Source: Holophagae bacterium (GTDB lineage Bacteria; Acidobacteriota; Thermoanaerobaculia; Thermoanaerobaculales; Sulfomarinibacteraceae). Taken from it: DNA of 19,331 nucleotides. The notes below the pieces were generated by a model. It made no database searches. It was given only the letters and a program-made list of their open reading frames with translations, and was not told the origin of the DNA. The stretch covers positions 1 to 19,331 of the forward strand of contig JAUWTC010000002.1 in NCBI GenBank assembly GCA_030609785.1, in the 5' to 3' direction. How positions within the stretch are numbered: position 1 is the first letter of the stretch; each line of letters opens with the position of its first letter. Shown here piece after piece: positions 1 to 17,148 of this stretch. Made by a program: the position numbers and the translations under genes.

Positions 1-295
1 AGGCGCCGCCGACGGCGAGCCCGTTGCCGAAAGTCGGATTGACGATCGGGATCGGGAAGGCAACGAAATCGCCGAACTCCTTGCCGCCTGGCGCCGTGTC
101 AACTATATCGGTGACGAGTTCCGGATTTCCCGTCTGGGCCGAGACTGGCGACGGGCAGGCGATCACCGACGCGACCCCAAGCAGGCACAGGGTCCCGAGC
201 TTCCATATCCAACTATGGCGCCTTGCGAAAATGCCTGGACCCTCACGAATAATAGTTAGCCCTGCGTTACCCGGTTGGATACGGTATCGTGTCAT
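1..295 (-). CDS. Outer-membrane beta-barrel protein, surface antigen (D15/Omp85)-like, N-terminal fragment
   Basis: This gene runs off the left edge; 98 complete codons are visible. The ATG lies 6 bases after a GGAGGAGG ribosome site. The product opens with a basic stretch, then a hydrophobic signal peptide (about residues 33-53) ending VSA-QTG, so it is exported. A VIAC segment inside the signal could act as a lipobox, but the VSA-Q cut fits better. After a short linker (residues 54-77) comes FPIPIVNPTFGNGLAVGGA, which resembles the first strand of bacterial surface-antigen/Omp85-type barrels, where a P-I-x-N-P-T-x-G-x-G-L motif is common. This suggests a short-linker barrel without POTRA domains close to the start. 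Export is well supported; the family rests on a single motif. It is divergent from the toxin-antitoxin pair, with 239 bases between. Confidence 0.65.
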   Translation of the reverse strand, partial: MTRYRIQPGNAGLTIIREGPGIFARRHSWIWKLGTLCLLGVASVIACPSPVSAQTGNPELVTDIVDTAPGGKEFGDFVAFPIPIVNPTFGNGLAVGGA

Positions 296-411
296 GATCT
301 GTCCTCCTCCACCTCGGTCCGGCCGCCTGTGGTCGCGGGGCTGCCGGTGAAAAACTCGCATTTGCTCATGGGTCGAATTTAACTCTCGGGAATCGTCACC
401 ACATGCCTACT

Positions 412-433
412 TATTAGAGAGATATTAGGGAGA
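412..433. repeat. Tandem 11-base direct repeat in the divergent intergenic region
   Basis: Two adjacent 11-base units, TATTAGAGAGA and TATTAGGGAGA, differ at one base. They lie in the AT-rich gap between the outer-membrane protein gene and the antitoxin gene. An 11-base spacing puts both units on about the same DNA face, which is typical of paired regulator sites. No regulator is identified. Confidence 0.45.
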
Positions 434-503
434 TTCGCCCTGAAGCCTGCCTTCCAGAATGGCCTGCTCATTAATATGAAAAATAAGCCATCTCGAAGAG
501 TGG

Positions 504-509
504 TATCAT
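504..509 (+). promoter_or_regulatory. Candidate -10 element of the mazEF operon
   Basis: TATCAT matches 5 of 6 bases of the -10 consensus and would give a start of transcription about 20 bases before the antitoxin ATG, leaving room for its strong GGAGGTGA ribosome site at 523-530. No convincing -35 element is visible 16-18 bases upstream. Confidence 0.3.
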
Positions 510-534
510 CAGTACGAGCCACGGAGGTGATGTA

Positions 535-795
535 ATGGCCGTTGCAGGGACGAGAAAGGTCACAATTTCGGTGTCGGGGGAGTTATTGGCGTTCGCCGAT
601 CGTATGGCCAAGAAGACCGGTTCGACACGGAGTAGTTTCATCAGCTCCGTGCTCAACGAGGTGCGGGAGCGGGAACTGGAACGCCTGGCCGCAGAGGGGT
701 ACCGCTACTTTGGGTCGGAAGCCCAAGAATTTTCCGCGGCCAGTGGGTCTGCCGTGGCAGAGGCAATCGGCAGGGAATATGATGAGCATCTCTAG
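535..795 (+). CDS. mazE: MazE-type antitoxin, ribbon-helix-helix
   Basis: This 86-residue protein is the antitoxin of a type II toxin-antitoxin pair. Residues 6-50 form a ribbon-helix-helix domain: a beta strand (RKVTISVSGELL), a first helix (AFADRMAKKTG) and a second helix starting at STRSSFISSVLNEV. This fold dimerises to bind operator DNA, so the protein probably represses its own operon. The C-terminal tail (about 51-86), rich in Ala, Glu and Tyr, is the part expected to wrap the toxin. The start is fixed by a near-perfect ribosome site (GGAGGTGA at 523-530, 4 bases before ATG). The end overlaps the toxin gene by 14 bases, so translation is probably coupled. MazE of the Bacillus EndoAI type also has this fold. 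Confidence 0.85.
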   Translation: MAVAGTRKVTISVSGELLAFADRMAKKTGSTRSSFISSVLNEVRERELERLAAEGYRYFGSEAQEFSAASGSAVAEAIGREYDEHL

Positions 796-1162
796 GGGCG
801 AGATTTACTGGGTCGAGTTCGATCCCGTCAAGGGCAGCGAACAGGGAGGACTCAGACCTGCGGCTGTTGTTCAAAACGATGTCGGCAACCGCTTCAGTCC
901 AACAACAGTGGTTGCGGCAATCACCCGGACGATTCCACCCAAGCCTTATCCCTTTGTCGTGATCATCGAAGCCGAGGAAAGTGGGCTTCCTCACCGGTCT
1001 GTCATCAACTGTTCTCAGCTGGCCACCATTCAAGCCTCCGGTACGGGTTCTCGACTGAGGCCGCCGCCTGGAGAAAGCAAGGTTCGGCCGGTTGGCCGGA
1101 TGGGACGGAAGAGCCTCGACAGGATTGGTGCCGCACTTCGATACAATTTTTCCCTTGAGTGA
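782..1162 (+). CDS. mazF: MazF/PemK-family endoribonuclease toxin
   Basis: This 126-residue protein is a sequence-specific mRNA interferase held inactive by the upstream antitoxin. It shows the family's N-terminal block (RGEIYWVEFDPVKGSEQGG, then RPAAVVQND) and the block FSPTTVVAAIT. Started at the second of two adjacent ATGs (782, not 779), the key residues fall at R25 and T48, the same numbers as the catalytic residues of Bacillus subtilis MazF; the second ATG also has better spacing from AGGG at 772-775. The C-terminal part is less typical: after CSQLATI there is a Pro/Gly/Arg-rich stretch of about 20 residues before the final helix. The same frame is open upstream to 542, but that part is the shadow of the antitoxin. 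It converges on the ABC-F gene. Confidence 0.92.
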   Translation: MSISRGEIYWVEFDPVKGSEQGGLRPAAVVQNDVGNRFSPTTVVAAITRTIPPKPYPFVVIIEAEESGLPHRSVINCSQLATIQASGTGSRLRPPPGESKVRPVGRMGRKSLDRIGAALRYNFSLE

Positions 1163-1174
1163 CTGATCCAACCC

Positions 1175-1194
1175 GGGCACGGCACGCCGTGCCC
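1175..1194. terminator. GC-rich palindrome between convergent genes
   Basis: GGGCACGGC, AC, GCCGTGCCC form a 9-base perfect inverted repeat, followed by CCTACG. It lies between the mazF stop and the end of the ABC-F gene and could stop transcription from both sides. There is no T-tract, so intrinsic termination is uncertain. From general knowledge, a GGCACGCCGTGCCCCTAC-like word also recurs as an intergenic repeat in many bacterial genomes. Confidence 0.45.
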
Positions 1195-1201
1195 CTACGT
1201 C

Positions 1202-3127
1202 CTATCCCAACGCCTCGATTTCAGCGCCCAGGTCGTCCCATTCTGCCGTCAGGTGTTCGACCTCGGACTTGAGGGTGTCGCGGTCTGCCGCCAGTCGCCG
1301 AATCTCAGCTTCGTTCCGGGTGTCGTAGAAATCGGCCTGACAGAAAAGGGCGTCGAGGTTCTCTATCTTTTTCTCGGCCTCTTCGATGGCGTTCTCGACG
1401 ACGCCGAGCCTGAGTTTCAGGTCTTTTTGACGTTTGAGCCGCTGCTTTTCGTCGTCGGGCGGTTGCCCCTGATCGCCGTTCTTTCGGTTTTTCTTTTGTC
1501 TCTTTTCCTCTCGGGTCTTCTTCAGTACGGCACGGGAGTCCAGGTGGTCGTCGCCACAGCGCTCCAGGTACTCCTCGTAGGAGCCCCTGAAGTCGTTCAT
1601 GCCGTCAGGGGTAATCTCGAGGATACGGTTGGCCAGGAGGGAGACGAACCAACGGTCGTGCGAGACCAGGATGATCGTGCCGTCGTAGGCCTCCAGGGCC
1701 TCGACCAGCGCCTCGATCGCCTCGAGATCGAGGTGGTTGGTCGGTTCGTCAAGGACCAGAACGTTGGGTTCATCGACCGAGAGGCGGGCGAAGATCAGGC
1801 GGGTGGCCTCACCGCCGGAGAGTGCGCCGAGTTTCTTCTCGACCTCTTCTCGCGAAAAGAGTACACGGCCCAGGCGGCCCCGCACCCAACCGGTATCGCG
1901 GCCCGCCGCCGCCTCGCCGAGGAAGCCCTCGACTGTGCCCTTGCGGTCTCCGAAAATGTCCTTGTGATCCTGGGCGAAGTAGCCGGGATGGGTTTCATGG
2001 CCCCAGAGAACCTCTCCGGAATCAGCGGGGATGACGTTCATCAGGATCTTGAGGAGGGTCGACTTGCCGATGCCGTTGGGTCCGATGATCGCCAGGCGGT
2101 CGCCTCTGCGCACCATCAGATCGACGCCCTTGAGTACGCGGTTGTCGCCGTAGGCCTTGTCCAGTCCGGAAATCTCGAGCACGGTCTTGCCGCTGGGGCG
2201 GCGTTGGGCGAAACCGAATTTTGGATATCGTCTGGACGAGGGCGGCAGCTCCTCGAGATCGATGCGCTCTATCGCCTTGAGCTTGCTCTGAGCCTGGCGG
2301 GCCTTGGTAGCCTTGGCGCGGAACCGATCGGCGAACGCCTTGTGCTGGGCGATTTGTTTCTCCCTCTTGGATATCTCGGACTCTTTGCGATTGCGATTCT
2401 CGACCTTGGCCGCCTCGAAGCGCCGATAATTACCGGTGTAGGGGGTGATGGTGCGGTAGTCAACGTCGAGGATGTGGGTGCAGACAGTGTTGAGGAACCG
2501 GTGGTCGTGGGAGATCACCAGGGCGCAGCCTGGATAATCCACCAGGAATGTCTCGAGCCATCGAATGGAGAGGATATCGAGGTGGTTGTTCGGCTCGTCG
2601 AGTAGCAGACAGCCGGGGTTGGAGGCCAGGGTCTGGGCCAAAAGCACGCGGAACTTGAATCCGCCGGACAGGGTCGACAGCGGCAGCCGGTGCTGAGAGG
2701 TCGGGATGCCAAGGCCTTCGAGAATCTCTGCGCAGCGCGCCTCGAATGCGTAGCCGTCGTGGCTGAGGATCAAGTCCTCCAGATCGCCGTAGCGGTCAGC
2801 ATCGAAGGGCTCGGCTGCGAGGACGGCCTCCTTTTCCTCCATCGCCTGCCACAGGCCCTGGTGGCCCATCATCGCGACTTCCAGAATCGGCGTGTTCTCG
2901 TACTCGAAGTGATCCTGCTTGAGCACGCCCAGCGTCAGGTTCCGGGGCATGGCCACTTTGCCGGAACTGGCTTCCTCATCGCCGGTGATGATGCGCAGCA
3001 GCGTCGACTTGCCGGAGCCATTGGCCCCGACCAGGCCATAACGGTTGCCGGGGTCGAGCTGGAGGTTGACGTCCTCAAACAGGTTCTGGGCGCCGAATTG
3101 CTTGGAAATATTGGTCAGCGTAATCAT
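1202..3127 (-). CDS. ABC-F family ATPase, YbiT-like with a Uup-like C-terminal coiled coil
   Basis: This 641-residue soluble protein has two ATP-binding cassettes and no membrane domain. ABC-F proteins act on the ribosome, at the E site, in translation control or rescue. Cassette 1: Walker A GANGSGKST (34-42), LSGG (153-156), Walker B region LDEPNNHLD (176-184), SHD (206-208). The charged linker characteristic of the family follows at about 240-290. Cassette 2: GPNGIGKST (349-357), LSGGE (436-440), LDEPTNHLD (459-467), SHD (489-491). Residues about 562-640 form a Glu/Lys-rich coiled coil like the C-terminal domain of Uup. The core resembles E. coli YbiT (NRYGL-GANGSGKS, IRWLE, TRILEITP). The start at MITLTNISKQFG matches the family better than the ATG two codons upstream (3133). 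No ribosome site is seen; TATCCT lies 8 bases before the ATG. Confidence 0.92.
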   Translation of the reverse strand: MITLTNISKQFGAQNLFEDVNLQLDPGNRYGLVGANGSGKSTLLRIITGDEEASSGKVAMPRNLTLGVLKQDHFEYENTPILEVAMMGHQGLWQAMEEKEAVLAAEPFDADRYGDLEDLILSHDGYAFEARCAEILEGLGIPTSQHRLPLSTLSGGFKFRVLLAQTLASNPGCLLLDEPNNHLDILSIRWLETFLVDYPGCALVISHDHRFLNTVCTHILDVDYRTITPYTGNYRRFEAAKVENRNRKESEISKREKQIAQHKAFADRFRAKATKARQAQSKLKAIERIDLEELPPSSRRYPKFGFAQRRPSGKTVLEISGLDKAYGDNRVLKGVDLMVRRGDRLAIIGPNGIGKSTLLKILMNVIPADSGEVLWGHETHPGYFAQDHKDIFGDRKGTVEGFLGEAAAGRDTGWVRGRLGRVLFSREEVEKKLGALSGGEATRLIFARLSVDEPNVLVLDEPTNHLDLEAIEALVEALEAYDGTIILVSHDRWFVSLLANRILEITPDGMNDFRGSYEEYLERCGDDHLDSRAVLKKTREEKRQKKNRKNGDQGQPPDDEKQRLKRQKDLKLRLGVVENAIEEAEKKIENLDALFCQADFYDTRNEAEIRRLAADRDTLKSEVEHLTAEWDDLGAEIEALG

Positions 3128-3135
3128 GACCATGC

Positions 3136-3141
3136 AGGATA
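3136..3141 (-). promoter_or_regulatory. Candidate -10 element of the ABC-F gene
   Basis: On the minus strand TATCCT lies 8 bases before the ATG at 3127. The gene has no Shine-Dalgarno sequence, so transcription starting at or near the start codon (a leaderless mRNA) is possible. The -35 position reads TTCCCC and is not a consensus match. Confidence 0.4.
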
Positions 3142-3190
3142 GCGGAGGAAGGATGAATGGGGAATACGGGATTCATAATTTTTCCCACCG

Positions 3191-3196
3191 TATAAT
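3191..3196 (+). promoter_or_regulatory. Consensus -10 element of the DUF2147 gene
   Basis: A perfect TATAAT lies 28 bases before the preferred ATG (3225) and 7 bases before an in-frame ATG at 3204. The -35 position (3168-3173) has no clear match. It is the likely promoter of the run of genes beginning at 3225. Confidence 0.5.
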
Positions 3197-3224
3197 GGGA
3201 TCGATGCTTTCACGGGAGAATCAA

Positions 3225-3689
3225 ATGCGAATTATGATGTTGTTGATCGTAACCATGGCTTTTGTCGTGCCTTTGCAGGCCGGCGACGTCGATCCCCTTC
3301 TCGGTCTGTGGGCAACCCCCCCCGATGACGAGGGCGGTCAGGCCCACGTGGAGATCACCCGAAAGGGCGACGGCTACAGCGGACGACTGGTGTGGCTGGC
3401 GGAACCGGTGTACGACTCCGATGACGAGCAGGGCATGGGGGGAAAGGCCAAGGTTGATCGGGAAAACCCCGATCCGGCCCTGAGGTCCAGGCCGACCCAT
3501 GGGCTGGTGATCCTCGAAGGCTTCGTCCGGTCGGGAAACAAGTGGACCGGCGGCACGATCTATGACCCCAACAACGGCAAGACCTACCGCTGCAAGATGC
3601 GGCTCAAGGGTGAGCGACTCAAGGTGCGGGGATACATCGGTGTGTCCCTTTTCGGCCGTTCGACCGTATGGACCCGGGTTGGGGAGTGA
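3225..3689 (+). CDS. DUF2147 family exported protein
   Basis: This 154-residue protein starts with a signal peptide (MRIMMLLIVTMAFVVPLQAG) and is expected in the periplasm. The mature part follows the DUF2147 pattern: GLWATP near the start, a central HGLVILEGF block, then SGNKWTGGTIYDPNNGKTY and LKVRGYIG, ending in a W-T-R segment. The fold is thought to be lipocalin-like; no enzyme activity is established for the family. The start at 3225 has GGGAG at 3214-3218, 6 bases upstream. An in-frame ATG at 3204 adds MLSRENQ and sits 7 bases after TATAAT, so a leaderless longer form is the alternative. The HD-GYP gene begins 12 bases after the stop, so the two are probably co-transcribed. Confidence 0.85.
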   Translation: MRIMMLLIVTMAFVVPLQAGDVDPLLGLWATPPDDEGGQAHVEITRKGDGYSGRLVWLAEPVYDSDDEQGMGGKAKVDRENPDPALRSRPTHGLVILEGFVRSGNKWTGGTIYDPNNGKTYRCKMRLKGERLKVRGYIGVSLFGRSTVWTRVGE

Positions 3690-3701
3690 CAGGGAGGTCC
3701 C

Positions 3702-4931
3702 TTGAACGTCCTTCACGAGTTCCTGGAATTCATCGAGGTCTCGAGACCTCAACCGATCGAGGAACTCCTTCGCCGGGTGTTGCTGAAGAGTCGCCAGGTG
3801 ACCGGAGCAGAAGCCGGCACGATCTTCCTGGTGCGCGGAAGCGGCGGGACACGTCGCCTCGAGGCATCGAACGCCCAAAACGACGTCGTGCCGCTGGAAC
3901 CCGCCCAAATCGTCGTGCCGGTCAGCCAGTCGTCGATTGCGGGCTTTACCGCGATCACCGGGGAAACGGTCTTCGTCGACGATCTCTACGAAATCTCGGC
4001 CGATGTTCCCTACACTTTCGACCCGAGTTTCGACCTCAATCTCGGTTATCGCAGCCGCACGATGCTGTCCTTCCCGCTTCTCAACCACGACCGCAAGGTG
4101 ATCGGCGTGGTCCAGCTGATCAACCGAAGGGGCCGGGACGGCGAGGGGCCGTTGTCCTTCGAGGCGGAGCAGGCCGATTTGATCGTGCCCTTCAACCACA
4201 TCGTCGGGTCGGCGATCGTGCGCGCGGACATGACCGAAAAGATCGAGGCCCAGAACCTCAGGCTGAAGAAGCGCAACGCCCAACTCAAGGCCCAACGGGA
4301 GAAAATCGCCGCCCTCAAGGACGAAACCGAGGATGCCTTCCAACTGTCGATCCGACTGCTTGCCCGGGCCGCGGAAGTGCACGATGAGAACACCGCTCGC
4401 CATGTCGAGCGGGTTAACGAGTACGCCTACTTCCTCGCAGAGATTCTCGGTGTTCCGAAGGCCTTTTGCGACGAGATTCGGTACTCCGCCCAGCTTCACG
4501 ACGTCGGCAAGATGAGCATTGATATGGCAATTCTGCGCAAAAAGGGGCCCTTGACCGACGAAGAACGGGATGAGATGAAAAGGCATCCGGTCTACGGCTA
4601 TCGAATCCTCACGGCTTCGGATCGTCTCCGGATGGCAGGGGAGATCGCGCTCAACCACCACGAACGATGGGACGGTAACGGCTATCCCCACGGTCGCAGG
4701 GGTCGGGAAATTCCCCTTGCGGCTCGAATCGTCAGCCTTGCCGACATCTACGATGCGCTGCGTTCCCAGCGGCCCTATAAACCGGGATTCGACCATGAGA
4801 CGACGCGGAGGACCCTGCTCGAAGGGGACGACCGGATGAAGGTCGAGGGTCTCTTTGACCCGCAGGTGGTGGGAGCCTTCGCCGAACACCACCGGGGGTT
4901 CGACGAGATTTGGGAGCGGCTGGCGGATTGA
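3702..4931 (+). CDS. GAF domain / HD-GYP cyclic-di-GMP phosphodiesterase
   Basis: This 409-residue cytoplasmic protein probably hydrolyses c-di-GMP in response to a ligand sensed by its GAF domain. Residues about 18-172 form the GAF domain (TGAEAGTIFLV, RTMLSFPLL, VIGVVQLIN). A helical linker (about 177-208) leads to the HD-GYP domain (about 212-405). Metal and catalytic residues are complete: H266-D267 in LHDVGK, H295-P296, H319-H320, the GYP motif in ERWDGNGYP (327-329) and D348 in SLADIYDAL. The start is TTG, with AGGGAGG at 3691-3697, 4 bases away; upstream extension is blocked by the in-frame stop of the preceding gene. It probably shares the transcript with the DUF2147 gene. No diguanylate cyclase or PilZ protein is in the window. 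Confidence 0.93.
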   Translation: MNVLHEFLEFIEVSRPQPIEELLRRVLLKSRQVTGAEAGTIFLVRGSGGTRRLEASNAQNDVVPLEPAQIVVPVSQSSIAGFTAITGETVFVDDLYEISADVPYTFDPSFDLNLGYRSRTMLSFPLLNHDRKVIGVVQLINRRGRDGEGPLSFEAEQADLIVPFNHIVGSAIVRADMTEKIEAQNLRLKKRNAQLKAQREKIAALKDETEDAFQLSIRLLARAAEVHDENTARHVERVNEYAYFLAEILGVPKAFCDEIRYSAQLHDVGKMSIDMAILRKKGPLTDEERDEMKRHPVYGYRILTASDRLRMAGEIALNHHERWDGNGYPHGRRGREIPLAARIVSLADIYDALRSQRPYKPGFDHETTRRTLLEGDDRMKVEGLFDPQVVGAFAEHHRGFDEIWERLAD

Positions 4932-4932
4932 G

Positions 4933-4981
4933 GGATGAAGGATGAAGGATGAAGGCGGAAGGATGAAGACGGAAGGATGAG
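4933..4981. repeat. Heptamer repeat array, GGATGAA family
   Basis: Seven consecutive 7-base units: GGATGAA three times, GGCGGAA, GGATGAA, GACGGAA, GGATGAG. The array begins just after the HD-GYP stop and runs into the first ATG of the next gene. Every GGATGA unit combines a Shine-Dalgarno-like core with an ATGA, so it may blur the true start of the next gene. Confidence 0.85.
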
Positions 4982-5534
4982 AGAGAAGGACATGGACCAG
5001 GTTACGATCAAGGGGTTCATCATCGCCAACCTTCTCGACCTCGTGAGAGGCAAGCTGAGCGAGCAGGAGTTCGCGTGCTTGGAGGAGGATCTCGGGGTGA
5101 GCTACAAAAGCCTGAAGCTCGCGTACTTCAAGGACTACCCTGTCGAGGTTCAAATTCGTACAGAGGAGAAGGTCGCCCAAATCTTGTGGCAACGGTCCGA
5201 TGACGGCGCCTTTTACAAATTCGGCCGAATGAACTACGAGACTTTTGCCAAAAGCGCGATTGGCAGGACTGCCCTCGCCCTGGTCGGAAAAAACCCGAAG
5301 AGGATCGTCAAGGCATCGGTCCGCCTGATGTCGACTGTCATGAAGGGCATGAAGATCGAATTCGAGGACAGAGGAGAGAATGAGATCTCGTTTCGGTTTC
5401 GGAACAATCCCTATCGACCCCTCGGTTGGCAGGGGGTCATCGACGCCGTCCTCGAGTCCGCCGGCGTGACCCCAGAGGTCACGATCATCAAGCATGGTCC
5501 AACGGACACCGAATACCTGGTGACCTGGAGTTGA
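4977..5534 (+). CDS. DUF2378 (TIGR02265)-like protein
   Basis: This 185-residue soluble protein of unknown function has no signal peptide or membrane segment. It resembles the family expanded in myxobacteria: an opening VTIKGFIIANLLD, a middle block FGRMNYETFAKSAIGRTALALVG then NPKRI, a later MKGMKIEFEDRG, and a beta-strand ending (TEYLVTWS). The likeness is by eye, on pattern and length (family about 180-200 residues). The ATG at 4977 lies in the last unit of the heptamer array; an in-frame ATG at 4992, preceded by GAGAGAAGGA, would give the tighter N-terminus MDQVTIKG and may be the true start. It follows the HD-GYP gene in the same direction, but the repeat between them makes shared transcription only possible. 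Confidence 0.7.
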   Translation: MREKDMDQVTIKGFIIANLLDLVRGKLSEQEFACLEEDLGVSYKSLKLAYFKDYPVEVQIRTEEKVAQILWQRSDDGAFYKFGRMNYETFAKSAIGRTALALVGKNPKRIVKASVRLMSTVMKGMKIEFEDRGENEISFRFRNNPYRPLGWQGVIDAVLESAGVTPEVTIIKHGPTDTEYLVTWS

Positions 5535-5604
5535 CCCCTTCGGCGCTGTTACCGTTTCTCCTTCTTCGGAGATTCGTGTAGCTTGGCGCCGAGGACACCG
5601 GCCC

Positions 5605-6798
5605 ATGACGATCTACTTCGACCACAACGCCACGACGCCCCTTCATCGGGAGGTCTTCCAAGAGATGACGTCCGCCATGGAGACGAGGTGGCACAACGCC
5701 TCGAGCACCCACGCTCCCGGGCTTCGTGCTCGAAGCGACGTGGAGCGGGCGCGCGAGGAGATCGCCGCGCTCCTCGGGGCGAGCCCCGAGGAGGTGATCC
5801 TGACGGGCGGTGGCACCGAGGCAAACAACCTCGCCGTCATCGGCGCCGGCATGGCCCGGCGCGAGCACGGAGAGCACATCGTGGTCAGTCGTGTGGAACA
5901 CCACGCTGTCCTCCGGGCCGCCGTGGCGCTGGAGAGACGTGGATTTGACATCACCTACGCCGATGTCGATGCCGACGGACGGGTCGATCCCGACGCCATC
6001 GTCGATGCGCTGCGGCCGACGACGGTGCTGGTCAGCGTGATGCACGCCAACAACGAGACCGGCGCGATCCAGCCCATCGGCGAACTCGGCCGGAGGCTGC
6101 GCGAGTGCGACATCATCCTGCACACCGACGCCGTGCAGACCGTTGGGAAGATGCATATCGACGTGAACGATCTAGGCGTGGATCTACTGACGTTGTCGGC
6201 CCACAAGCTCTACGGCCCCAAGGGGGTCGGTGCGCTTTATGTGCGCGACGGGGTCGAGGTGGAGCCTTTGGTGCACGGGGGCGCACAGGAGGATGGCATC
6301 CGTCCCGGCACCTACAACGTGCCCGCCATCGTCGGCTTGGGCGTCGCCGCTCGCCTGGCACGGCGGAGCATTGACGAGAACGCCGGCTACATCGCCTCCT
6401 TGGTCGACCGACTGGAGCGCGGATTGCTCCGCATCGCGCCCGACGCGGAGATCCTCGTCGACAAACGACACAGGCTCCACAACACGCTCACGGTCTGCTT
6501 TCCCGGCGAGAACAACGAGTCGCTCGTGACCAACCTTGACCTGCACGGTGTTGCGGTATCGACCGGCGCCGCATGCACCACCGGGGCGTCAGAGCCCTCC
6601 CATGTCCTGGCGGCCATGGGCATCGGCGAGGCGCAGGCACAGGGCGCCGTCCGCTTCTCCCTGGGCTGCACGAACACGGCGCAAGAGGTAGACTTTGCTC
6701 TCGGCGCGCTCCGCGAGGTGCTCAAGCGCCAACGGGGCTTCATCGAGCGCCTCAGCGATGGGTTGGGTATGGTCAACAGAACCAAAGGGGAAAAGTGA
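5605..6798 (+). CDS. Cysteine desulfurase (NifS/IscS-like, aminotransferase class V)
   Basis: This 397-residue PLP enzyme takes sulfur from L-cysteine, forms a persulfide on its own cysteine and passes it to an acceptor. Visible motifs: YFDHNATTPL at the N-terminus, TGGGTEANN (68-75), the ring-stacking histidine in VEHHA (H99), HANNETGAIQP (147-157), HTDAVQ (173-178), the PLP lysine K201 in SAHKLYGPKG, and the catalytic C324 in STGAACTTG followed by PSHVLAAMG. The TTG after the cysteine keeps a short active-site loop. Length is normal for the family. GAGG at 5591-5594 is a weak ribosome site 10 bases upstream. The PP-loop ATPase gene follows 52 bases later in the same direction, so it is the likely sulfur recipient or partner. 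There is no IscU, IscA or SufE gene beside it, which argues against a general Fe-S role. Confidence 0.93.
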   Translation: MTIYFDHNATTPLHREVFQEMTSAMETRWHNASSTHAPGLRARSDVERAREEIAALLGASPEEVILTGGGTEANNLAVIGAGMARREHGEHIVVSRVEHHAVLRAAVALERRGFDITYADVDADGRVDPDAIVDALRPTTVLVSVMHANNETGAIQPIGELGRRLRECDIILHTDAVQTVGKMHIDVNDLGVDLLTLSAHKLYGPKGVGALYVRDGVEVEPLVHGGAQEDGIRPGTYNVPAIVGLGVAARLARRSIDENAGYIASLVDRLERGLLRIAPDAEILVDKRHRLHNTLTVCFPGENNESLVTNLDLHGVAVSTGAACTTGASEPSHVLAAMGIGEAQAQGAVRFSLGCTNTAQEVDFALGALREVLKRQRGFIERLSDGLGMVNRTKGEK

Positions 6799-6802
6799 CG
6801 GC

Positions 6803-6817
6803 CGCGAGCCACTCGCG
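6803..6817 (+). other. Small hairpin between desulfurase and PP-loop genes
   Basis: CGCGAG, CCA, CTCGCG form a 6-base-pair GC-rich stem, followed by a pyrimidine-rich run to about 6837. It could attenuate transcription or stabilise the upstream message end, setting different levels of the two proteins. It is too short for a confident terminator. Confidence 0.3.
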
Positions 6818-6850
6818 TCTCTCCATTTCTTGTTACTGTAAAGGAGCCAG

Positions 6851-7951
6851 ATGTCAGTAGACATTAAGACCGAAGGAATTTCATCGAGCCGCACCTTGAG
6901 CGAACTCGTGATGATGTTCACCGGAGGGACCGACACCACGCTGGCAGCGGCGCGGATCCTCGACGAGGGTGAGGTCGACAGGCTCCACCTGGTGACTTTC
7001 TGCAACGGTATCTGCATCAAGGTCGAGAACTCGGCGAAGCACGCCGTTGAACTCGAGGGCATGTACGGCGCTGAGAAGATCCACCACGAGATCATCTACG
7101 TCACGGAGCTGTTCGAGCGGCTGCGCAGCCCTCTGTGGGAGATCGTCAAGGAGTCGGGCTCGACGCTCTCCTTCGACCTGTGCTGTCGCCTCTCCATGGA
7201 GACGGCGGCCATCATTTACGCTTTGGACCACGGCATCGACCGGGTGTGCGACGGTACCAACATCGACCAGGGGAGGCTCTTCCTCGAGCGGCCTGAGTTC
7301 CTGCGGGTGGCCAAGGACTACTTCGCCTCATTCGGCATCGAGTACTTCAGCCCGGTCTACGCCCAGTCGGGCGGCCGTCTCGGTCGCCGCGCGGAGCTCG
7401 TCGAGCGTGGCTTCAGCGTCGGCCCCGAGTTCCTGGAGAGACTGAACATCACCACGTGCATTGGACACCAGCCTTTCTGCATGGCGGCCTTCCACACATT
7501 CATGTTCACCTCGTTCGTCCGGGATTTGCCCATCGTCGGCAACGTCATCGACCGGTTTGGGCTCCCCCTGGACCGGGCCATCGAGCTGCGACTCGACCGC
7601 GAGAAGATCGGGCGGGAGATCATCGAGGAGCACCTGGCGTTCAACGCCACGAACGAGACCGGGATCCGCATTCAAGAGCACTTCTGCACGACGCGGCTTT
7701 GTGGAAAGAACACGGTGGAAATCGCCTTTCCACGAGGTGCGCAGATCGACCTGGAGGGGCTGGCCGTGGCCTGGTCGAAGGAGGGCCGCTCCAGCGAGCG
7801 GGATGGAGAGCTGCTGCTGACCTCAGAGGGGGGCCTGCAACTGCAGGTCCACCCAACGGGCAAGGTTATGTTCGTGGGCACCAAGAACAGGAAGCGTGCC
7901 GAGGAGCTGCTGGCACAACTCCTCGTACCTCACGATGTCGTTCAGGCCTGA
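6851..7951 (+). CDS. PP-loop (adenine nucleotide alpha-hydrolase-like) ATPase with ThiF/MoeB-type C-terminal tail domain
   Basis: This 366-residue protein has a strong ribosome site (AGGAG, 4 bases before ATG). Residues about 15-240 look like an N-type ATP pyrophosphatase: the PP-loop FTGGTDTTLAA (23-33; usual form SGGxDS), a following strand HLVTFCNG, and CDGTN (133-137), the second nucleotide contact of this superfamily. Such enzymes adenylate a substrate for sulfur or amine transfer (MnmA, ThiI, TtcA, QueC). Residues about 281-358 (TRLCGKNTVEI, IDLEGLAVAWSKEG, LQLQVHPTGKVMFVGT, KRAEELLAQL) resemble the C-terminal tail of ThiF/MoeB adenylyltransferases (LCGRNxVQ ... FPDGRxxVxGT ... A). Nine cysteines are present (51, 55, 111, 112, 133, 203, 210, 279, 284), some possible persulfide or metal sites. 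With the desulfurase it suggests a thiolation enzyme; substrate unknown. Confidence 0.8.
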   Translation: MSVDIKTEGISSSRTLSELVMMFTGGTDTTLAAARILDEGEVDRLHLVTFCNGICIKVENSAKHAVELEGMYGAEKIHHEIIYVTELFERLRSPLWEIVKESGSTLSFDLCCRLSMETAAIIYALDHGIDRVCDGTNIDQGRLFLERPEFLRVAKDYFASFGIEYFSPVYAQSGGRLGRRAELVERGFSVGPEFLERLNITTCIGHQPFCMAAFHTFMFTSFVRDLPIVGNVIDRFGLPLDRAIELRLDREKIGREIIEEHLAFNATNETGIRIQEHFCTTRLCGKNTVEIAFPRGAQIDLEGLAVAWSKEGRSSERDGELLLTSEGGLQLQVHPTGKVMFVGTKNRKRAEELLAQLLVPHDVVQA

Positions 7952-8043
7952 AGGTTATCCTCGGCGTGCCCCACATTGACGGAAAGCAGGCAGGTATGGG
8001 AAAGGGTGGCACGCATTGCACCCATCGGCTCACTGGCACCGAT

Positions 8044-9621
8044 TCACCCGGTTTCGTCGCGATATTTGAACTGGCCTGCGGTAGTTTTGAGTTCAGATGC
8101 CATTCTCGAAAGTTCAGCTGCGGCCGCCAGCATGGAGGATGCCATGCTACTGGTTCCCTCGGCTGCCTCGGCCACTCCTGCGATACTGCCGCTGATCTCC
8201 GAACTGCCCTCCGCCGCCTGGGAAATGTTCCGCCCGATTTCGGCGGTCGTGGCAGTCTGTTCTTCGACCGCGGCTGCGATCACTGACTGAATATCATAGA
8301 TCTTGGTGATGACCCCACTGATTTTTCCGATCGCCTCGGTAGCACTCTCCGAGCTGGTCTGAATCGCACCGATCAGTTCCCGGATTTCTTCGGCCGACAT
8401 TGCAGTTCCCTGGGCCAGCTTTTTGACCTCACTCGCAACCACGGCAAACCCCTTTCCCGCCTCACCGGCACGGGCCGCCTCGATTGTGGCATTCAAGGCC
8501 AGGAGATTTGTCTGCTCCGCGATGGAGGTAATGACGCTGATGACTTTACCGATTTTGGCACTGTCTTCCCCAAGTGTGACAATGGTTTCGTTCGTGTCAT
8601 CGGCCACCTCGACAGCAGAACCGGCGATCTGCGCTGCCAGGGTCGCCTGGGTGGCGATCTCGCTCACGTTAGCCGACAACTCCTCCGCTGCGATCGCAAT
8701 CCTCTGGATGTTGTCGTTGACCTGTCCCGCAGAGTCTGAAACGACATTTGCCTGAGAGGAGGTCTCCTCGGCATTTGTGTTTATTTCCGTGCTCAAGTCG
8801 GAGAACTGTTCGGAGGCACCTGCGAGTGCGATCGAATTGGTACTCGTCGTCTCCAACACGTCCTTGACCTTGACAAACAACCGGTCCAACGCATCCGTCG
8901 TGAGACCGAGCTCGTCGCGGTTGGTTGCCCGAAAACGTTGTGTCAGGTCGCCTTCGGCCATCAGATTCGCCTTTGCCATTGTAATTCCGAGCGAACCGGT
9001 CACATAACGGCTGACGAACAACGAGATGACACCAAGGGCGATGAAGGCCACCAGGACAACGACCACACTTGTGATCGTCGTGCGTCGTTGGATCCCCTGG
9101 GCACGCACAAAGGCATCATCCACGTCTTGCCTTGCACGTTCGGTCACCTCGGTAAGGGACTCCCGAATGCCGTTGTACTGGCTTCTCATCAGTTCTATTG
9201 CCGCCAGCACATCGCTGCCGAATTCCCCGTCTACCATGCGCAACGTTGTTGCGCCGGCATTTTCGTAGTATTCGAGAAACTCCTGTTCGAGGGCGGCAAC
9301 CCTGAACTCCTCCAGTGTCGGATTCTCCCGAGCGGTTTCGAAACCCAACACAATGTTGTCACGAATCAGATCGGCTTCTGCAAGCAGGTCAGCATCGGCC
9401 GCGGAGACAGCGTCCTGAAGCCCTCGCTGCAGTTGCTCCAGTTCGAAACCCAACCGTTGAAAGAGCTGAAGTGCGGGCACGTATCCGTGTTGAATATCAT
9501 CGAATACGGCCTTTGACCTGAGGCCCGCCGACAGGCTGGTAACCAGGATCAGAATAAAGCCGAGAGTCGCGACGGCCGGCATCGAAATAATCTTGTAGCC
9601 AAAGCGGAGATCCTTCATCAT
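8044..9621 (-). CDS. Methyl-accepting chemotaxis protein
   Basis: This 525-residue inner-membrane receptor has TM1 (about 12-33), a helical periplasmic sensor of four-helix-bundle type (about 35-180), TM2 (about 183-204), a HAMP domain (about 205-258) and a long cytoplasmic signalling coiled coil. The hairpin tip that binds CheA and CheW is complete: [19 protein letters not shown] (369-387), then [14 protein letters not shown] (390-403). There is no C-terminal CheR/CheB-binding pentapeptide. The reading frame is open further upstream, but the start used here (adjacent ATGs at 9621 and 9618) follows GGAGGGG with 6-base spacing and gives a normal MCP N-terminus; the upstream frame would add 60 non-family residues. 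It is divergent from the PstS-like/TonB fusion gene. No che genes are nearby, so it depends on a chemotaxis core elsewhere. Base composition looks less GC-rich than the flanks. Confidence 0.95.
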
Positions 9622-9845
9622 TTGTTGCCCCTCCATCGTCTTTTTTTCGACTCTCGCTACAACGATACCATCACGGATCGCTGAGCTTGGCAGTTTGAGG
9701 CCCCGGGAATATCTGTCTGTGCGGCGAATAGACGGCCGGGGCACTGAGTTATGATAAATGGGAGAACGTTGTGGAGTGGTTTCCTTGTGGCCCCTGCTCA
9801 AAGGGGCGGAACGGATTCGCTGTTATCTGAGTGAAAGGACTGAAT

Positions 9846-10535
9846 ATGCGACCGTTGGCGATGTTCATGATCGTATTGGCGGCGGTAGGTTTCGCCGATT
9901 GGGTCGTCGGCCAGGACCGGGTGGATTTCCTGGTTATTGTTCATCCCGAAAACCCGACCCGGTCAATGGACTACCTCGAGGTTTCGGATATGTTCCTGAC
10001 CAAGACAAAAAAGTGGGGTGACAAAACGGTCGTTAGGCCGGTGGATTTGAAGGCCGGTTCGCCGATTCGAGATTCTTTTTCGAAAGAAATTCACCAGAAA
10101 TCCGTGGCCAGTGTAGAGAGTTTTCTTCATCAGCAGATTTTTTCGGGGCGCGCAAAACCGCCGCTCGTCGTTGCTTCTGATGCCGAAGTGGTGGATTTCG
10201 TCAGCAAGAACCCCGGGGCAATCGGCTATGTTTCCTCGAATTATGAACTCGTGGGCGTCCGGGTTCTTTTGCTGCTCGTATCTCCCCAACGAATCAAATT
10301 CGTTGAACCCAGGTACACGAGTTCCGCCCGCCGTGCCAAAGCCCATGGGACGGTGGTGTTGGAGTTGCTGATCGATGCCGACGGCAACGTTACTGATGCG
10401 TACGCCCTCACGGAACTCGGGTTTGGGCTTACCCAGGCTGCGATAAACGCAGCAAAACAATGGAAATACCAACCAGCGACCCTCGCCGGGGAGCCGACAG
10501 AAACGACCATCAGGGTCAGTGTGAGATTCAACTAG
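9846..10535 (+). CDS. Secreted fusion: PstS-like (phosphate-binding-type) domain + TonB C-terminal domain
   Basis: This 229-residue protein begins with a signal peptide (MRPLAMFMIVLAAVGFADWVVGQ). Residues about 25-142 resemble the short periplasmic binding-protein-like domain related to PstS: VDFLVIVHPENP, MDYLEVSDMFLTKTKKW, a middle helix with SVASVESFLHQQIFSG, then VSKNPGAIGYVSSN. Residues about 153-229 are a TonB C-terminal domain: VEPRYTSSARRAKAHGTVVLELLIDADGNV, AAINAAKQWKYQPA, and the closing strand TTIRVSVRFN. Full TonB has a membrane anchor and Pro-rich spacer; both are missing, so it probably acts as a free periplasmic protein rather than an ExbBD-driven transducer. The ATG at 9846 (AAAGGA, 6 bases upstream) is preferred over GTG at 9831. 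Its neighbour is a divergent chemotaxis receptor; a ligand link is only a guess. Confidence 0.82.
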   Translation: MRPLAMFMIVLAAVGFADWVVGQDRVDFLVIVHPENPTRSMDYLEVSDMFLTKTKKWGDKTVVRPVDLKAGSPIRDSFSKEIHQKSVASVESFLHQQIFSGRAKPPLVVASDAEVVDFVSKNPGAIGYVSSNYELVGVRVLLLLVSPQRIKFVEPRYTSSARRAKAHGTVVLELLIDADGNVTDAYALTELGFGLTQAAINAAKQWKYQPATLAGEPTETTIRVSVRFN

Positions 10536-10635
10536 AAGATCAGGAATCGGTTAGTATTTTCGACGTTTTTTATCCCCGGGCGAGTCTCAACAGCTGCCTT
10601 TCTGACCTCCCACCTGCGAGCCATGCAAACTAGTG

Positions 10636-10641
10636 GATAAT
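10636..10641 (+). promoter_or_regulatory. Candidate -10 element, leaderless nitrilase-family gene
   Basis: GATAAT lies exactly 6 bases before the ATG at 10648. No Shine-Dalgarno sequence is present. This spacing puts the transcription start on the A of the start codon. No -35 consensus is seen. Confidence 0.5.
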
Positions 10642-10647
10642 AAACCC

Positions 10648-11415
10648 ATGAGGATCTTTCTCTCCCGATGGGTGTGCCTCGATGTCGAAACCAATCTCAA
10701 ACGGGTCAAGGAGGAGGTCTGCCGGGCAGCCATGGACGGCGCGGCGATTGCAGTCCTTCCCGAACTGTGCCTGACGGGGTATCGCCGTGAGGTCGATGCC
10801 GCGGTGGCTCGGGAGGTTTTCGCCACGGCCTCTCGGTCTTTTCCGGAGGTGCTCTGCGTTTTCGGGACGATCTCCGAAGGGGGCCGAAACCGACTGACGG
10901 TGTGGCTCGGTGGTGAGCCTCTGGCCTCCTACGACAAGATCCACCTTTTTCACCCCAATCGGGAAGGAGAGTTCTGGTCGCCCGGAGACCGGTACGTCGC
11001 CCTTGACTGGAAGGGGTTCAGGATTGGTTTCATGGTGTGCAACGACCTCCGCTATCCAGAGCAGGCCCGGGCGCTGGCCTTGGAAGGGGGCTGTGATCTC
11101 CTGGTTATTCCGGGTTGGTGGCCGTGGCGACGTGATCATGTCTGGCAGACCCTGCTTCGAGCCCGGGCGATCGAGAACGCCGTCTGGGTAGCGGGTTGCT
11201 GCGTGGCGGGATCGGTATTTTCAGGCGAGGACTTTTCCGGCGCCGGGAACTATGTATTCGATCCCTTGGGTGAGCCGGTTCGGACCGTCGATGACCACAA
11301 CTACCGTCTGGAGATCGACCATCGGCCGGCGCTGGTGGTCGATCCTCGAGAGCATCCTCCGATCCTCGGAGAGGTGGAAGTGATTGAGGCGGGGGAGAGG
11401 GAAACCGGAAACTAG
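10648..11415 (+). CDS. Carbon-nitrogen hydrolase (nitrilase superfamily), YafV/omega-amidase-like
   Basis: This 255-residue cytoplasmic enzyme hydrolyses a non-peptide C-N bond. The catalytic triad is complete: E39 in VLPELCLTGY, K97 in SYDKIHLF, C131 in MVCNDLRYPEQ. Later blocks IPGWWP, WQTLLRARAIENAVWVAGC (166-184) and NYVFDPLGEPV (201-211) resemble the omega-amidase branch (E. coli YafV, Nit2), which deamidates alpha-keto acid amides; the substrate cannot be fixed from sequence alone. An in-frame GTG at 10633 is possible, but MRIFLSRW at the ATG is more typical and lies 6 bases after GATAAT. The last four residues and the stop are encoded by a GGAAACT heptamer array, so the C-terminus (ERETGN) appears altered. 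It converges on lon. Confidence 0.9.
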   Translation: MRIFLSRWVCLDVETNLKRVKEEVCRAAMDGAAIAVLPELCLTGYRREVDAAVAREVFATASRSFPEVLCVFGTISEGGRNRLTVWLGGEPLASYDKIHLFHPNREGEFWSPGDRYVALDWKGFRIGFMVCNDLRYPEQARALALEGGCDLLVIPGWWPWRRDHVWQTLLRARAIENAVWVAGCCVAGSVFSGEDFSGAGNYVFDPLGEPVRTVDDHNYRLEIDHRPALVVDPREHPPILGEVEVIEAGERETGN

Positions 11416-11434
11416 ATACTCGAAACTGGAAACT
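11400..11434. repeat. Heptamer repeat array, GGAAACT family
   Basis: Five 7-base units in phase: GGAAACC, GGAAACT, AGATACT, CGAAACT, GGAAACT. The array covers the last codons and stop of the nitrilase-family gene and continues into the intergenic gap. Confidence 0.75.
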
Positions 11435-11544
11435 GGACCTCTCCCTGAGGTCTCAGGTTTCACCCTTTAAGGGATTAGGGATTAGGGACCAGGGATGTGT
11501 TTCAAGTCCCTGATCTCGATTGAACGTTCCAGTTTCCAGTTTCG
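11421..11544. repeat. Long inverted repeat flanking a second heptamer array
   Basis: The 17-base arm at 11421-11437 (CGAAACTGGAAACTGGA) has a perfect reverse complement at 11528-11544. The 90-base interior holds the AGGGATT array. The two arms show that the same word family occurs in both orientations between the convergent genes. Confidence 0.75.
11470..11497. repeat. Heptamer repeat array, AGGGATT family
   Basis: Four 7-base units in phase: AGGGATT, AGGGATT, AGGGACC, AGGGATG. It lies between the arms of the GGAAACT inverted repeat in the gap between the nitrilase-family gene and lon. Confidence 0.8.
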
Positions 11545-11546
11545 GT

Positions 11547-11573
11547 CCTCACCCGTGATTCTCACGGGTGAGG
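11547..11573. terminator. Perfect 12-bp hairpin between convergent genes
   Basis: CCTCACCCGTGA, loop TTC, TCACGGGTGAGG. The stem begins 6 bases past the lon stop and can form on transcripts from either side. It lacks a U-tract on both strands, so it may be a bidirectional pause or 3'-end stabiliser rather than a classic intrinsic terminator. Confidence 0.6.
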
Positions 11574-11579
11574 CCTCCC

Positions 11580-14003
11580 TCACTCAAACTTCAACCGGCC
11601 ATCGACCAATCGCGCACCCCTCAGTGAGAACGCCAGGGCTTCTCCCAGGTGCTCGACCAGATGGATCTTCAACTCAGACCGGATGTCCTCGGGGAGGTCT
11701 TCCAGGTCGGCCTCGTTCTTTGCCGGCAGGATGATCGTCGAGATGCCGGCTCGGACCGCCCCGAGGACCTTCTCCTTGACGCCGCCAATCGGCAGCACCC
11801 GCCCGGCAAGGGTGATTTCGCCGGTCATGGCGACATCGTGCCGTGCGGGGTGTCCGGCCAGGGCGGAAACCAGGGCCGTTGCCATCGTGACGCCGGCCGA
11901 CGGGCCGTCCTTGGGAATGGCGCCGGCGGGCACATGGATATGCACGTCCTGTTGAAAGGCTTCTGCGTTGATACCCAATTCCTCGGCGTGGGCCTTGGCG
12001 TAGGTCCAGGCGGCACGAGCAGACTCCTTCATGACATCGCCCAGTTGACCCGTCAGTACGAGCTCACCCTTGCCTGGCATCGGGGAGGCCTCAACGAACA
12101 TGATGTCGCCACCGACCGGCGTGTAGAACATGCCGGTGACCACGCCGACCTGGTCGGCCTCGGCCGCGTGTTCCGGGTGAACCTTGGGCCGTCCCAAGAA
12201 TTCCTGGACCTGGTCCCGGTTGACGTCCACCGTCAGGACCTGCTCGCTGGCGATCTTTCGAGCGACTTTACGGGCTAGTCGGCCGATCTCCCGCTCCAAC
12301 TGGCGCACTCCGCTTTCCCGGGTGTGTCGGGAGATGATCTCCTTGACCGCATCATCGGCGAAGGTGATCTGTTCGCCGCTCAGACCAGCCTGTCGAATCT
12401 GACGTGGCGTGAGAAATCGTCGTGCGATTTCCAGCTTCTCGGCTTCGGTGTAGCCGGCAAAATCGACGACTTCCATCCGGTCCTGCAACGGTCCCGGGAT
12501 GTTCTGGAGATAGTTGGCAGTGCAAATAAACTGGACTTCGGACAGATCGAAGGGGACGCCGAGGTAATGGTCGACGAAGGTGTCGTTCTGAGCGGGATCG
12601 AGAACCTCCAACAAGGCCGCGCTGGGATCTCCCTGGTGGCCCATGCCCAGCTTGTCGACTTCGTCCAACAGAAACACCGGATTGAGGGCCCCGGCCTGTT
12701 TCATGCCCTGGATGATTCGCCCCGGCATCGCCCCGACGTAGGTGCGGCGGTGGCCTCTGACGTCGGCCTCGTCACGGACACCGCCCAGGGAGATTCGGAC
12801 ATACTCTCGGCCCATAGCGCGGGCGATGGATTTGGCCACCGAAGTCTTGCCGACGCCCGGCGGCCCGACGAACAGCAGGATGGGGTTTCGGTCGGGTTCA
12901 GTTTCGACGGTTGCCGTCGTCTCTGACGAGGATTCGACCTCGGCGGTCTCCGCTGCATCATTCGGTTGATGCCGCCGCAGGCGCATGATGCGCACGGCGA
13001 GGAACTCGAGGATCCGGTCCTTGACGTCGCCAAGGGCGTAGTGATCCTCCTCGAGGATGTCAGAGGCCGCATCCATGTCCAGACGTTCCTCGCTCCTCGA
13101 GACCCACGGAAGTTCGCACACGGTTTCCAAGTAGGTGCGGATGACCTGGGCTTCCATGCCTTCGGGCCCCATTCTCTCGAGGCGCCCCATTTCCCGGTCG
13201 ACGTCCTTCCGGGCGACGGCCGGCAATTCCAACTCGGCCAGCCGCTCCTTGAGTTCGTCCAGATCATCCCGCCCGGTATCGTCACCCAGCTCTTTTTGGA
13301 TGGTCTTCAACTGCTGACGCAGGTACACCTCGCGTTGGCGGTCGCCCAGCTCTTCTTGAACCTGGCTCTTGATGTCCTCCTGGGCGTCGAGTACCGAGAT
13401 CTGTCGTTGGATGAGAACCAAGACCTGGCGCATGCGTTCTTCGACGTCCAGGGTCTCCAGGAGGGTCTGTGCCTCGGAGGCCTTGAGGTCGAGGTGGCCC
13501 GCGACGAGATCGGTCAGACGGCCGGCGTCCGCATTTTCGGCGAGGAACTGCTCGACGGCTTCCTTGGGGAGCCCGGCGCGGTGGCCCAGTTCTGCGGCAC
13601 GTTCCCGGGTCTCGCGGTAGAGGGCCTGGAATGACGGAGCGGCGGGATCGAGGGGAAGGATTTCATCGGTCTCCTGAAAGACGGCAACCAGATAGCCGCC
13701 CTCGTTCTCAAACCGGATGACCGACCCTCTGGCATCGCCGGTCAGCAGGAGGCGCATCCCGGCCGGTCCTCTTTGGACCGGGCCGATGGTGGCGATGGTT
13801 CCGACCGTGTAGAGAAGGTCCGGCGAAGCGTCGTCCACGTTTTCCCGTTGTGCAACGACGAAGATACGCTTCTGGTCCCTTTTGAGGGCAGCTTCGATGG
13901 CGTGAAGGGTTCCCGGTCGGCCGGCAGCAATCGGCGACGTTACGCCAGGGAAAAGAACCGCTTCGCGGAGTGGAATGACGGGAAGTGTGATCAATTCGGG
14001 CAT
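11580..14003 (-). CDS. lon: ATP-dependent Lon protease
   Basis: This 807-residue protein degrades misfolded and regulatory proteins in the cytoplasm as a hexamer. The N-terminal substrate domain covers about 1-200 (LPVIPLREAVLFPG), followed by a helical arm (about 200-340), the AAA+ module with Walker A GPPGVGKT (380-387) and Walker B FLLDEVD (444-450), the sensor/lid region to about 600, and the serine-lysine protease domain with S702 in KDGPSAG and K743 in GGVKEKVLG. Residues about 344-373 form a Glu/Thr/Ser-rich insert between arm and AAA+ where most Lons have only a few residues. The protease domain starts GVVTGMFYTPVGGDIMFVEA. GAGGAG lies 8 bases before the ATG. A 9-9-9 inverted repeat lies upstream and may be its control site. 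Confidence 0.97.
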   Translation of the reverse strand: MPELITLPVIPLREAVLFPGVTSPIAAGRPGTLHAIEAALKRDQKRIFVVAQRENVDDASPDLLYTVGTIATIGPVQRGPAGMRLLLTGDARGSVIRFENEGGYLVAVFQETDEILPLDPAAPSFQALYRETRERAAELGHRAGLPKEAVEQFLAENADAGRLTDLVAGHLDLKASEAQTLLETLDVEERMRQVLVLIQRQISVLDAQEDIKSQVQEELGDRQREVYLRQQLKTIQKELGDDTGRDDLDELKERLAELELPAVARKDVDREMGRLERMGPEGMEAQVIRTYLETVCELPWVSRSEERLDMDAASDILEEDHYALGDVKDRILEFLAVRIMRLRRHQPNDAAETAEVESSSETTATVETEPDRNPILLFVGPPGVGKTSVAKSIARAMGREYVRISLGGVRDEADVRGHRRTYVGAMPGRIIQGMKQAGALNPVFLLDEVDKLGMGHQGDPSAALLEVLDPAQNDTFVDHYLGVPFDLSEVQFICTANYLQNIPGPLQDRMEVVDFAGYTEAEKLEIARRFLTPRQIRQAGLSGEQITFADDAVKEIISRHTRESGVRQLEREIGRLARKVARKIASEQVLTVDVNRDQVQEFLGRPKVHPEHAAEADQVGVVTGMFYTPVGGDIMFVEASPMPGKGELVLTGQLGDVMKESARAAWTYAKAHAEELGINAEAFQQDVHIHVPAGAIPKDGPSAGVTMATALVSALAGHPARHDVAMTGEITLAGRVLPIGGVKEKVLGAVRAGISTIILPAKNEADLEDLPEDIRSELKIHLVEHLGEALAFSLRGARLVDGRLKFE

Positions 14004-14020
14004 GTAACAGGCTCCTCATG

Positions 14021-14047
14021 AGACCTGAGCGAGTTTCACTCAGGTCT
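14021..14047 (-). promoter_or_regulatory. 9-9-9 inverted repeat in the lon leader, candidate operator
   Basis: AGACCTGAG, a 9-base spacer, CTCAGGTCT: perfect arms between a TAAAAT box (14054-14059) and the lon ribosome site. The geometry equals that of the CIRCE heat-shock operator (9-base arms, 9-base spacer), but the arm sequence differs from the TTAGCACTC/GAGTGCTAA consensus. It could be the site of a different repressor or an RNA hairpin in the leader. Confidence 0.55.
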
Positions 14048-14053
14048 CTGCTG

Positions 14054-14059
14054 ATTTTA
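14054..14059 (-). promoter_or_regulatory. Candidate -10 element of lon
   Basis: On the minus strand TAAAAT (5 of 6 to consensus) precedes the inverted repeat by 6 bases, so transcription would start at or just inside the repeat. No consensus -35 or sigma-32-type element was found. Confidence 0.4.
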
Positions 14060-14096
14060 ACACAAAGATGCCCGAGGAGATTCCCGGCAACTCCTG

Positions 14097-14102
14097 TATC
14101 CT
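14097..14102 (+). promoter_or_regulatory. Candidate -10 element, leaderless phosphatase gene
   Basis: TATCCT lies exactly 6 bases before the ATG at 14109. The sequence before the start has no Shine-Dalgarno match. The -35 position has no consensus. Confidence 0.45.
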
Positions 14103-14108
14103 CCCGTG

Positions 14109-16336: not shown

Positions 16337-16341
16337 AACTG

Positions 16342-16364
16342 TCAGCTAATCGCTGATAGCTTTT
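16342..16364. terminator. Short hairpin with T-tract between convergent genes, CGCTGAT-type word
   Basis: TCAGC, loop TAATC, GCTGA, then TAGCTTTT: a weak intrinsic terminator for the rhomboid-like gene. The same bases read as the 7-base units AGCTAAT, CGCTGAT, AGCTTTT, so it may be a remnant of another heptamer repeat family. Confidence 0.4.
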
Positions 16365-16366
16365 CC

Positions 16367-17125: not shown

Positions 17126-17131
17126 GGAACG

Positions 17132-17137
17132 ATGGTA
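17132..17137 (-). promoter_or_regulatory. Candidate -10 element, leaderless Nif3-like gene
   Basis: On the minus strand TACCAT lies exactly 6 bases before the ATG at 17125, with no Shine-Dalgarno sequence. Its -35 position would fall on the leader bases of the divergent lipoprotein gene. Confidence 0.45.
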
Positions 17138-17148
17138 GCAGAGGGGCC

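Follow-up and report, generated by a model that had tools for sequence, protein, structure and literature searches.

A two-gene locus in the genome of a Holophagae bacterium raises the question of what a cysteine desulfurase supplies with sulfur when its partner is a PP-loop ATPase that ends like an E1-type enzyme. The locus lies in a stretch of 19,331 nucleotides (GenBank assembly GCA_030609785.1, contig JAUWTC010000002.1, positions 1 to 19,331), here called the window. We found the two open reading frames (ORFs) intact, encoding proteins of 397 and 366 amino acids, with an intergenic spacer of 52 bp; by eye, an AGGAG motif ends 4 bases 5′ of the ATG of the second gene. A scan of positions 4800 to 8150 revealed neither a terminator-like site on the plus strand nor a sigma-70-like promoter. 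Taken as a whole, the locus is probably a two-gene thiolation module that acts on a nucleobase or nucleotide.

The 366-amino-acid protein has nothing above the cut-off in Pfam or NCBIfam. A protein search gave 43 relatives among the candidates scored, none of which carries a precomputed Pfam domain. Its closest structure is YcfA, solved with GTP. The fold match spans residues 15 to 266, and the PP-loop Asp, the DG/Q motif and the SPVY motif of YcfA are all kept. A first-pass annotation, made from the letters of the sequence, had proposed a link to YcfA, which the fold bears out, and had named the motifs TGGTDTT and CDGTN, which are found where it placed them (residues 24 to 30 and 133 to 137). 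It had also seen no THUMP or MnmA-type RNA-binding domain; neither these nor a ThiF adenylyltransferase domain gave a Pfam match up to E 1. Further structural matches are NcsA with a [4Fe-4S] cluster (6scy), TtuA, TtuA-TtuB and [4Fe-4S] LarE (8cnz), with NcsA and TtuA ranking below YcfA. We rejected an ordinary MnmA, ThiI or TtcA gene because no such Pfam match was found and YcfA is nearer in fold. Kinship with YcfA makes separateness from tRNA thiolation plausible.

The four C-terminal strings that had been likened to ThiF/MoeB tails span residues 283 to 357. A profile of the family finds matches at E ≤ 0.001 in 209 of 396 genomes of the phylum (the window's own included; at most five candidates scored per genome), and most of the matches listed cover the tail part only (profile columns 236 on), mainly in ORFs of about 340 amino acids or longer. 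All 19 tail-matching ORFs scanned contain Pfam ThiF, and a profile-profile comparison of the PP-loop tail with the ThiF-type tail gave E 3.5e-16 over 82 columns. A chance match was rejected on these three results, and profile evidence indicates, in agreement with the annotation, that the tail is homologous to the C-terminal TBP-like domain of MoeB/ThiF (E1-like) enzymes. The homology with enzymes of the PRK12475 type extends over the last ∼80 residues and includes a conserved LCG, whereas the catalytic part here is a PP-loop ATPase and not a ThiF domain. The LCG cysteine (C284) is present in 36 of 36 PP-loop tails; of 39 tails from other genomes, 32 have it and 7 are gapped there. Another tail cysteine (C279) is peculiar to the PP-loop family (Table 1). 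PMC2948915 suggests a role as GG-ended ubiquitin-like analogues for some TBP-like proteins. We rejected this role for the tail, as the last residues of the window protein are VVQA and a GG end occurs in none of the 35 relatives that have the tail (P0001 to P0035 of the 43). No description of a PP-loop protein fused to a TBP-like tail was found in the literature: the available portion of PMC2948915 does not include it, and a 2006 Genome Biology paper (PMC1779556) contains none of the terms looked for. YcfA-type enzymes and ThiF-type tails are each already known, and it is their combination for which we found no earlier description.

The desulfurase is full length (Pfam Aminotran_5) and carries K201 in SAHKLYGPK and C324 in GAACTTG, which we take from family knowledge to be the pyridoxal phosphate (PLP) lysine and the catalytic cysteine expected of class I cysteine desulfurases. 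Both residues had been pointed out in the first-pass annotation and are invariant (Table 1). The best NCBIfam match, NifS TIGR03402, scores 449.2 bits against a cut-off of 530.75, which places the protein outside the NifS equivalog. It thus resembles the NifS/IscS class I desulfurases in K201, C324 and a full-length family match but differs in falling into a group of its own, below that cut-off, and in being tied to the tailed PP-loop family. In a tree of 62 desulfurases, 11 linked to tailed PP-loop genes and 11 high-scoring candidates stand together, split from 40 generic ones (support, 100/100) that were hand-picked from further down the same search results; the linked desulfurases alone do not form a clade.

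The pairing itself recurs, as the annotation had anticipated. A 4-kb contig labelled Kiritimatiellia (L001) carries both genes, likewise with the desulfurase first, and 10 of the 35 tailed homologues lie on contigs of exactly the same size as that of a desulfurase homologue (nine in one list, eight in another). When the desulfurase contig sizes of the eight-match list were shifted by 1 to 20 bases either way, coincidences averaged 0.225. One of the matched pairs (P0009/P0056) carries the desulfurase sequence of L001, which brings the linked loci to 11, the window included. Over these loci, distances for the desulfurase are correlated with those for the PP-loop gene (Mantel r = 0.85; 0 of 10,000 permutations), to which shared ancestry of whole loci contributes. 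The PP-loop protein also has weak similarity to QueC and DUF7411 and could be amidotransferase-like or QueC-like, with the desulfurase an unrelated neighbour; the linkage at 11 loci, the correlated evolution and the cassette-type desulfurase group make this highly improbable.

A closer precedent is the synthesis of the antimetabolite 6-thioguanine, in which, according to published accounts, the tgs and YcfA systems pair a PP-loop enzyme with a PLP-dependent sulfur enzyme. The window protein shares this pairing with YcfA of E. amylovora, along with the fold and the motifs named above; TgsB of S. chromogenes is the described counterpart, likened here by description only, as the comparison was made with YcfA. 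Unlike YcfA, however, the window protein ends in an E1-type tail, and of its three invariant cysteines one (C112) is not in YcfA. In one paper, moreover, YcfA and the NUDIX protein YcfB are termed necessary and sufficient for 6-thioguanine, and no NUDIX partner was found among the 17 window ORFs scanned (9 + 8); the L001 contig offers only 4 kb. An outright 6-thioguanine pathway, orthologous to YcfA/YcfC or TgsB/TgsA, therefore seems improbable.

The three cysteines (C55, C112 and C210) are each kept in 41 of 41 aligned sequences, as is characteristic of [4Fe-4S] PP-loop thiolases. We also aligned 15 short, tail-less relatives (12 from loci and 3 from the protein search). C112 and C210 have counterparts in all 15. 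The remaining cysteine occupies the C55 position in 6 of them and that of D109 (giving CxxC) in 9, and 12 contain exactly these three cysteines and no other. Among five more short relatives, the three and no further cysteines occur in L039 and L040, L042 has additional ones beside the three, the truncated L014 has the CxxC only, and the distant L038 has CCxxC, with QSFC in place of the QPxC pattern. This swapping of the third position among relatives suggests that C55, C112 and C210 belong to one metal or sulfur site.

The three-cysteine pattern presumably resembles that of NcsA and TtuA. The [4Fe-4S] thiolases NcsA, TtuA and TtcA have in common with the window protein a PP-loop and three conserved cysteines, but no tRNA-binding domain was found in the latter, and the spacing of its cysteines differs from theirs. 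This likeness, and the presence of the tRNA thiolases NcsA and TtuA among the fold matches, raises the alternative that the module thiolates RNA, most likely tRNA, with the tail binding nucleic acid. The tail has a TBP-like fold with matches that include TBP (strong), RNase H3 and AlkA (weak), so nucleic-acid binding is conceivable. The same tail, however, occurs on MoeB/ThiF-type enzymes, which act on carrier proteins; in the nearest structure, that of YcfA, the ligand is GTP; and a gene present in 1 of 148 genomes of its class has a patchy distribution, unlike that of a core tRNA modification. We regard RNA as an unlikely substrate.

In the nucleotide thiolation that we favour, the desulfurase would take sulfur from cysteine and hold it as a persulfide on C324, as its family suggests. 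The PP-loop enzyme, with its YcfA-like scaffold, would bind ATP and, judging by YcfA and its GTP-bound structures, adenylate a carbonyl oxygen of the nucleobase or nucleotide, which sulfur would then replace; a guanine-type nucleotide would be the first candidate acceptor. C55, C112 and C210 may form a [4Fe-4S] or persulfide site. The E1-type tail would bring in the sulfur donor, the desulfurase being the likeliest docked partner, and, more speculatively, C284 might relay the persulfide. A bolder form of this scheme, which we put forward tentatively as a minority view, is that the tail is a transferable module for donor docking and persulfide relay through the LCG cysteine (C284), passed between adenylating enzymes of two unrelated folds (E1 and PP-loop). 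In the window it would couple a dedicated desulfurase to a YcfA-like iron-sulfur enzyme whose product would be a thionucleotide.

Several points weigh against nucleotide thiolation by a docked desulfurase. Linkage at nine of the loci is deduced from identical contig size and source and not from viewed adjacency, and two lists of 120 matches each contain no linked desulfurase for 25 of the 35 (seven of the 35 contigs are shorter than 2,400 bases). C112 is opposite Glu in YcfA in two alignments, and the chemistry may differ; C55 is matched to a Cys of YcfA in one alignment and is one residue off in the other, and the C210 region is outside both. Substrate, product and cluster are all predicted from sequence and structure comparison. 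Finally, only 2 Aminotran_5 genes occur among 39 scanned ORFs flanking tail-bearing ThiF genes (14 of 20 fetched loci); with a desulfurase so rarely next to them, the tail does not necessarily signify that one docks there. The flanks of short tail-less relatives have 1 Aminotran_5 among 22 ORFs at seven loci, among the families listed. Neither the tail nor the PP-loop alone predicts a desulfurase neighbour; so far, the combination does.

The tail could instead dock a ThiS/MoaD-like carrier, as in E1 enzymes, with the PP-loop domain drawing its sulfur from a thiocarboxylate on that carrier, in the way that TtuA uses TtuB. The E1-type identity of the tail and the TtuA-TtuB fold match are consistent with this, and the host genome (79.8% complete) encodes one ThiS/MoaD-like ORF of 81 amino acids with a GG end. 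That ORF, however, lies elsewhere in the genome, where it follows an aldehyde:ferredoxin oxidoreductase gene (121-3185 of L055 for the two together), near a ThiF fragment on the other strand that ends without the tail; the second ThiF match of the host genome (contig C159) is partial. The small Gly-Gly protein that the first-pass annotation thought might be nearby did not turn up: neither the window proteins scanned nor the three larger ORFs on L001 (4 kb) include a carrier. None is beside tail-bearing ThiF genes in the best 25 of 35 flanking families (E ≤ 1e-8). A dedicated desulfurase also makes a carrier less necessary, and we consider carrier docking rather doubtful.

Table 1. Positions in the window of the two genes and of their sequence features
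Feature	Position	Strand	Evidence
Cysteine desulfurase, class I (NifS/IscS) type, 397 amino acids	5605..6798	+	Aminotran_5 E 1.2e-82; NifS TIGR03402 449.2 bits
Lys201 codon, PLP lysine	6205..6207	+	Invariant in 13/13 aligned; role from family knowledge
Cys324 codon, catalytic cysteine	6574..6576	+	Invariant in 13/13 aligned; role from family knowledge
AGGAG, Shine-Dalgarno-like	6842..6846	+	Sequence read
YcfA-like PP-loop ATPase with C-terminal E1-type TBP-like domain, 366 amino acids	6851..7951	+	Profile and structure comparison
PP-loop TGGTDTT, residues 24-30	6920..6940	+	G25, G26 and D28 in 41/41; D28 aligns with YcfA D19
Cys55, first of three invariant cysteines	7013..7015	+	41/41
Cys112, second invariant cysteine	7184..7186	+	41/41, and 15/15 aligned short relatives
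DGTNIDQG motif, residues 134-141	7250..7273	+	DG and Q common to YcfA
Cys210 of QPFC, third invariant cysteine	7478..7480	+	41/41, and 15/15 aligned short relatives
TBP-like tail, residues 277-359, homologous to MoeB/ThiF C-terminal domain	7679..7927	+	Profile searches
Cys279, tail cysteine conserved in PP-loop family only	7685..7687	+	36/36 PP-loop tails; not conserved in tails from other genomes
Cys284 of LCG, common to PP-loop and ThiF-type tails	7700..7702	+	Candidate persulfide relay (inference)

The window's own genome is the only one of the 148 in its class, and of the 396 in its phylum, with the tailed gene. None was found in the 147 other genomes of the class or in a sample of 240 genomes from the class to which L001 belongs; a scan of genome contigs gave three loci, one of them tailed, and nothing else in the host genome matches the tail part of the family profile. 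Homologues occur in metagenome-assembled genomes (MAGs) labelled Eremiobacteraeota, Elusimicrobia and Pseudomonadota (protein search) and Kiritimatiellia (L001), and we infer that the cassette has spread horizontally. Within the window, the sequence on both sides of 4933-10627 matches same-genus genomes at 84 to 90%. At the left junction two of these have other DNA and the contig of the third ends 17 bases on; at the right junction all three have other DNA, and the alternative DNA at the junctions is common to them, so the cassette sits in a variable segment. A mis-binned contig was rejected because the long flanking stretches match three same-genus genomes. The segment also holds a DUF2378 gene, a chemotaxis receptor, part of which is found at 84% on another contig in a relative of the same family, and a TonB-domain gene. 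The DUF2378/TIGR02265 protein (4977-5534, same strand, 70 bases upstream of the desulfurase) has a weak HNOB (haem-NO-binding) match. Repeats of ∼30 to 50 bases at 4930-4980, the left edge of the segment, and at 11400-11438 have many dispersed copies in same-genus genomes. Elsewhere in the window, 535-1162 encodes a PemK/MazF-like toxin domain (Pfam E 6.8e-23), overlapped by an ORF of 86 amino acids that has no Pfam match and looks antitoxin-like by eye.

Short, tail-less YcfA-like proteins are encoded beside radical SAM genes at L005 572-1354, L003 2032-2811 (in a Thermoanaerobaculales genome of the window's family), L084 5693-6472, L085 2835-3614 and L002 9992-10810. In L005 the neighbour is a radical SAM fragment, and at the other four loci it is a B12-binding radical SAM gene. 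In L003 and L005, whose short proteins have exactly three cysteines, a protein with an FGE-sulfatase domain is encoded on the other side. These genes possibly belong to an uncharacterised pathway to a thio-product. At L078 (1799-4271), a SufS-type desulfurase gene is followed by an ORF of 125 amino acids without an NCBIfam match and then by a short PP-loop gene of the CxxC clade.

The window's host and the MAGs labelled Kiritimatiellia, Eremiobacteraeota, Elusimicrobia and Pseudomonadota are thus added to the range of YcfA-type PP-loop enzymes. Because the TBP-like tail, its cysteine included, here sits on an enzyme that lacks an E1 domain, the locus offers a natural experiment on what the tail does in many MoeB/ThiF enzymes, and the module suggests that a thiolated metabolite or RNA base has so far gone unrecognised.
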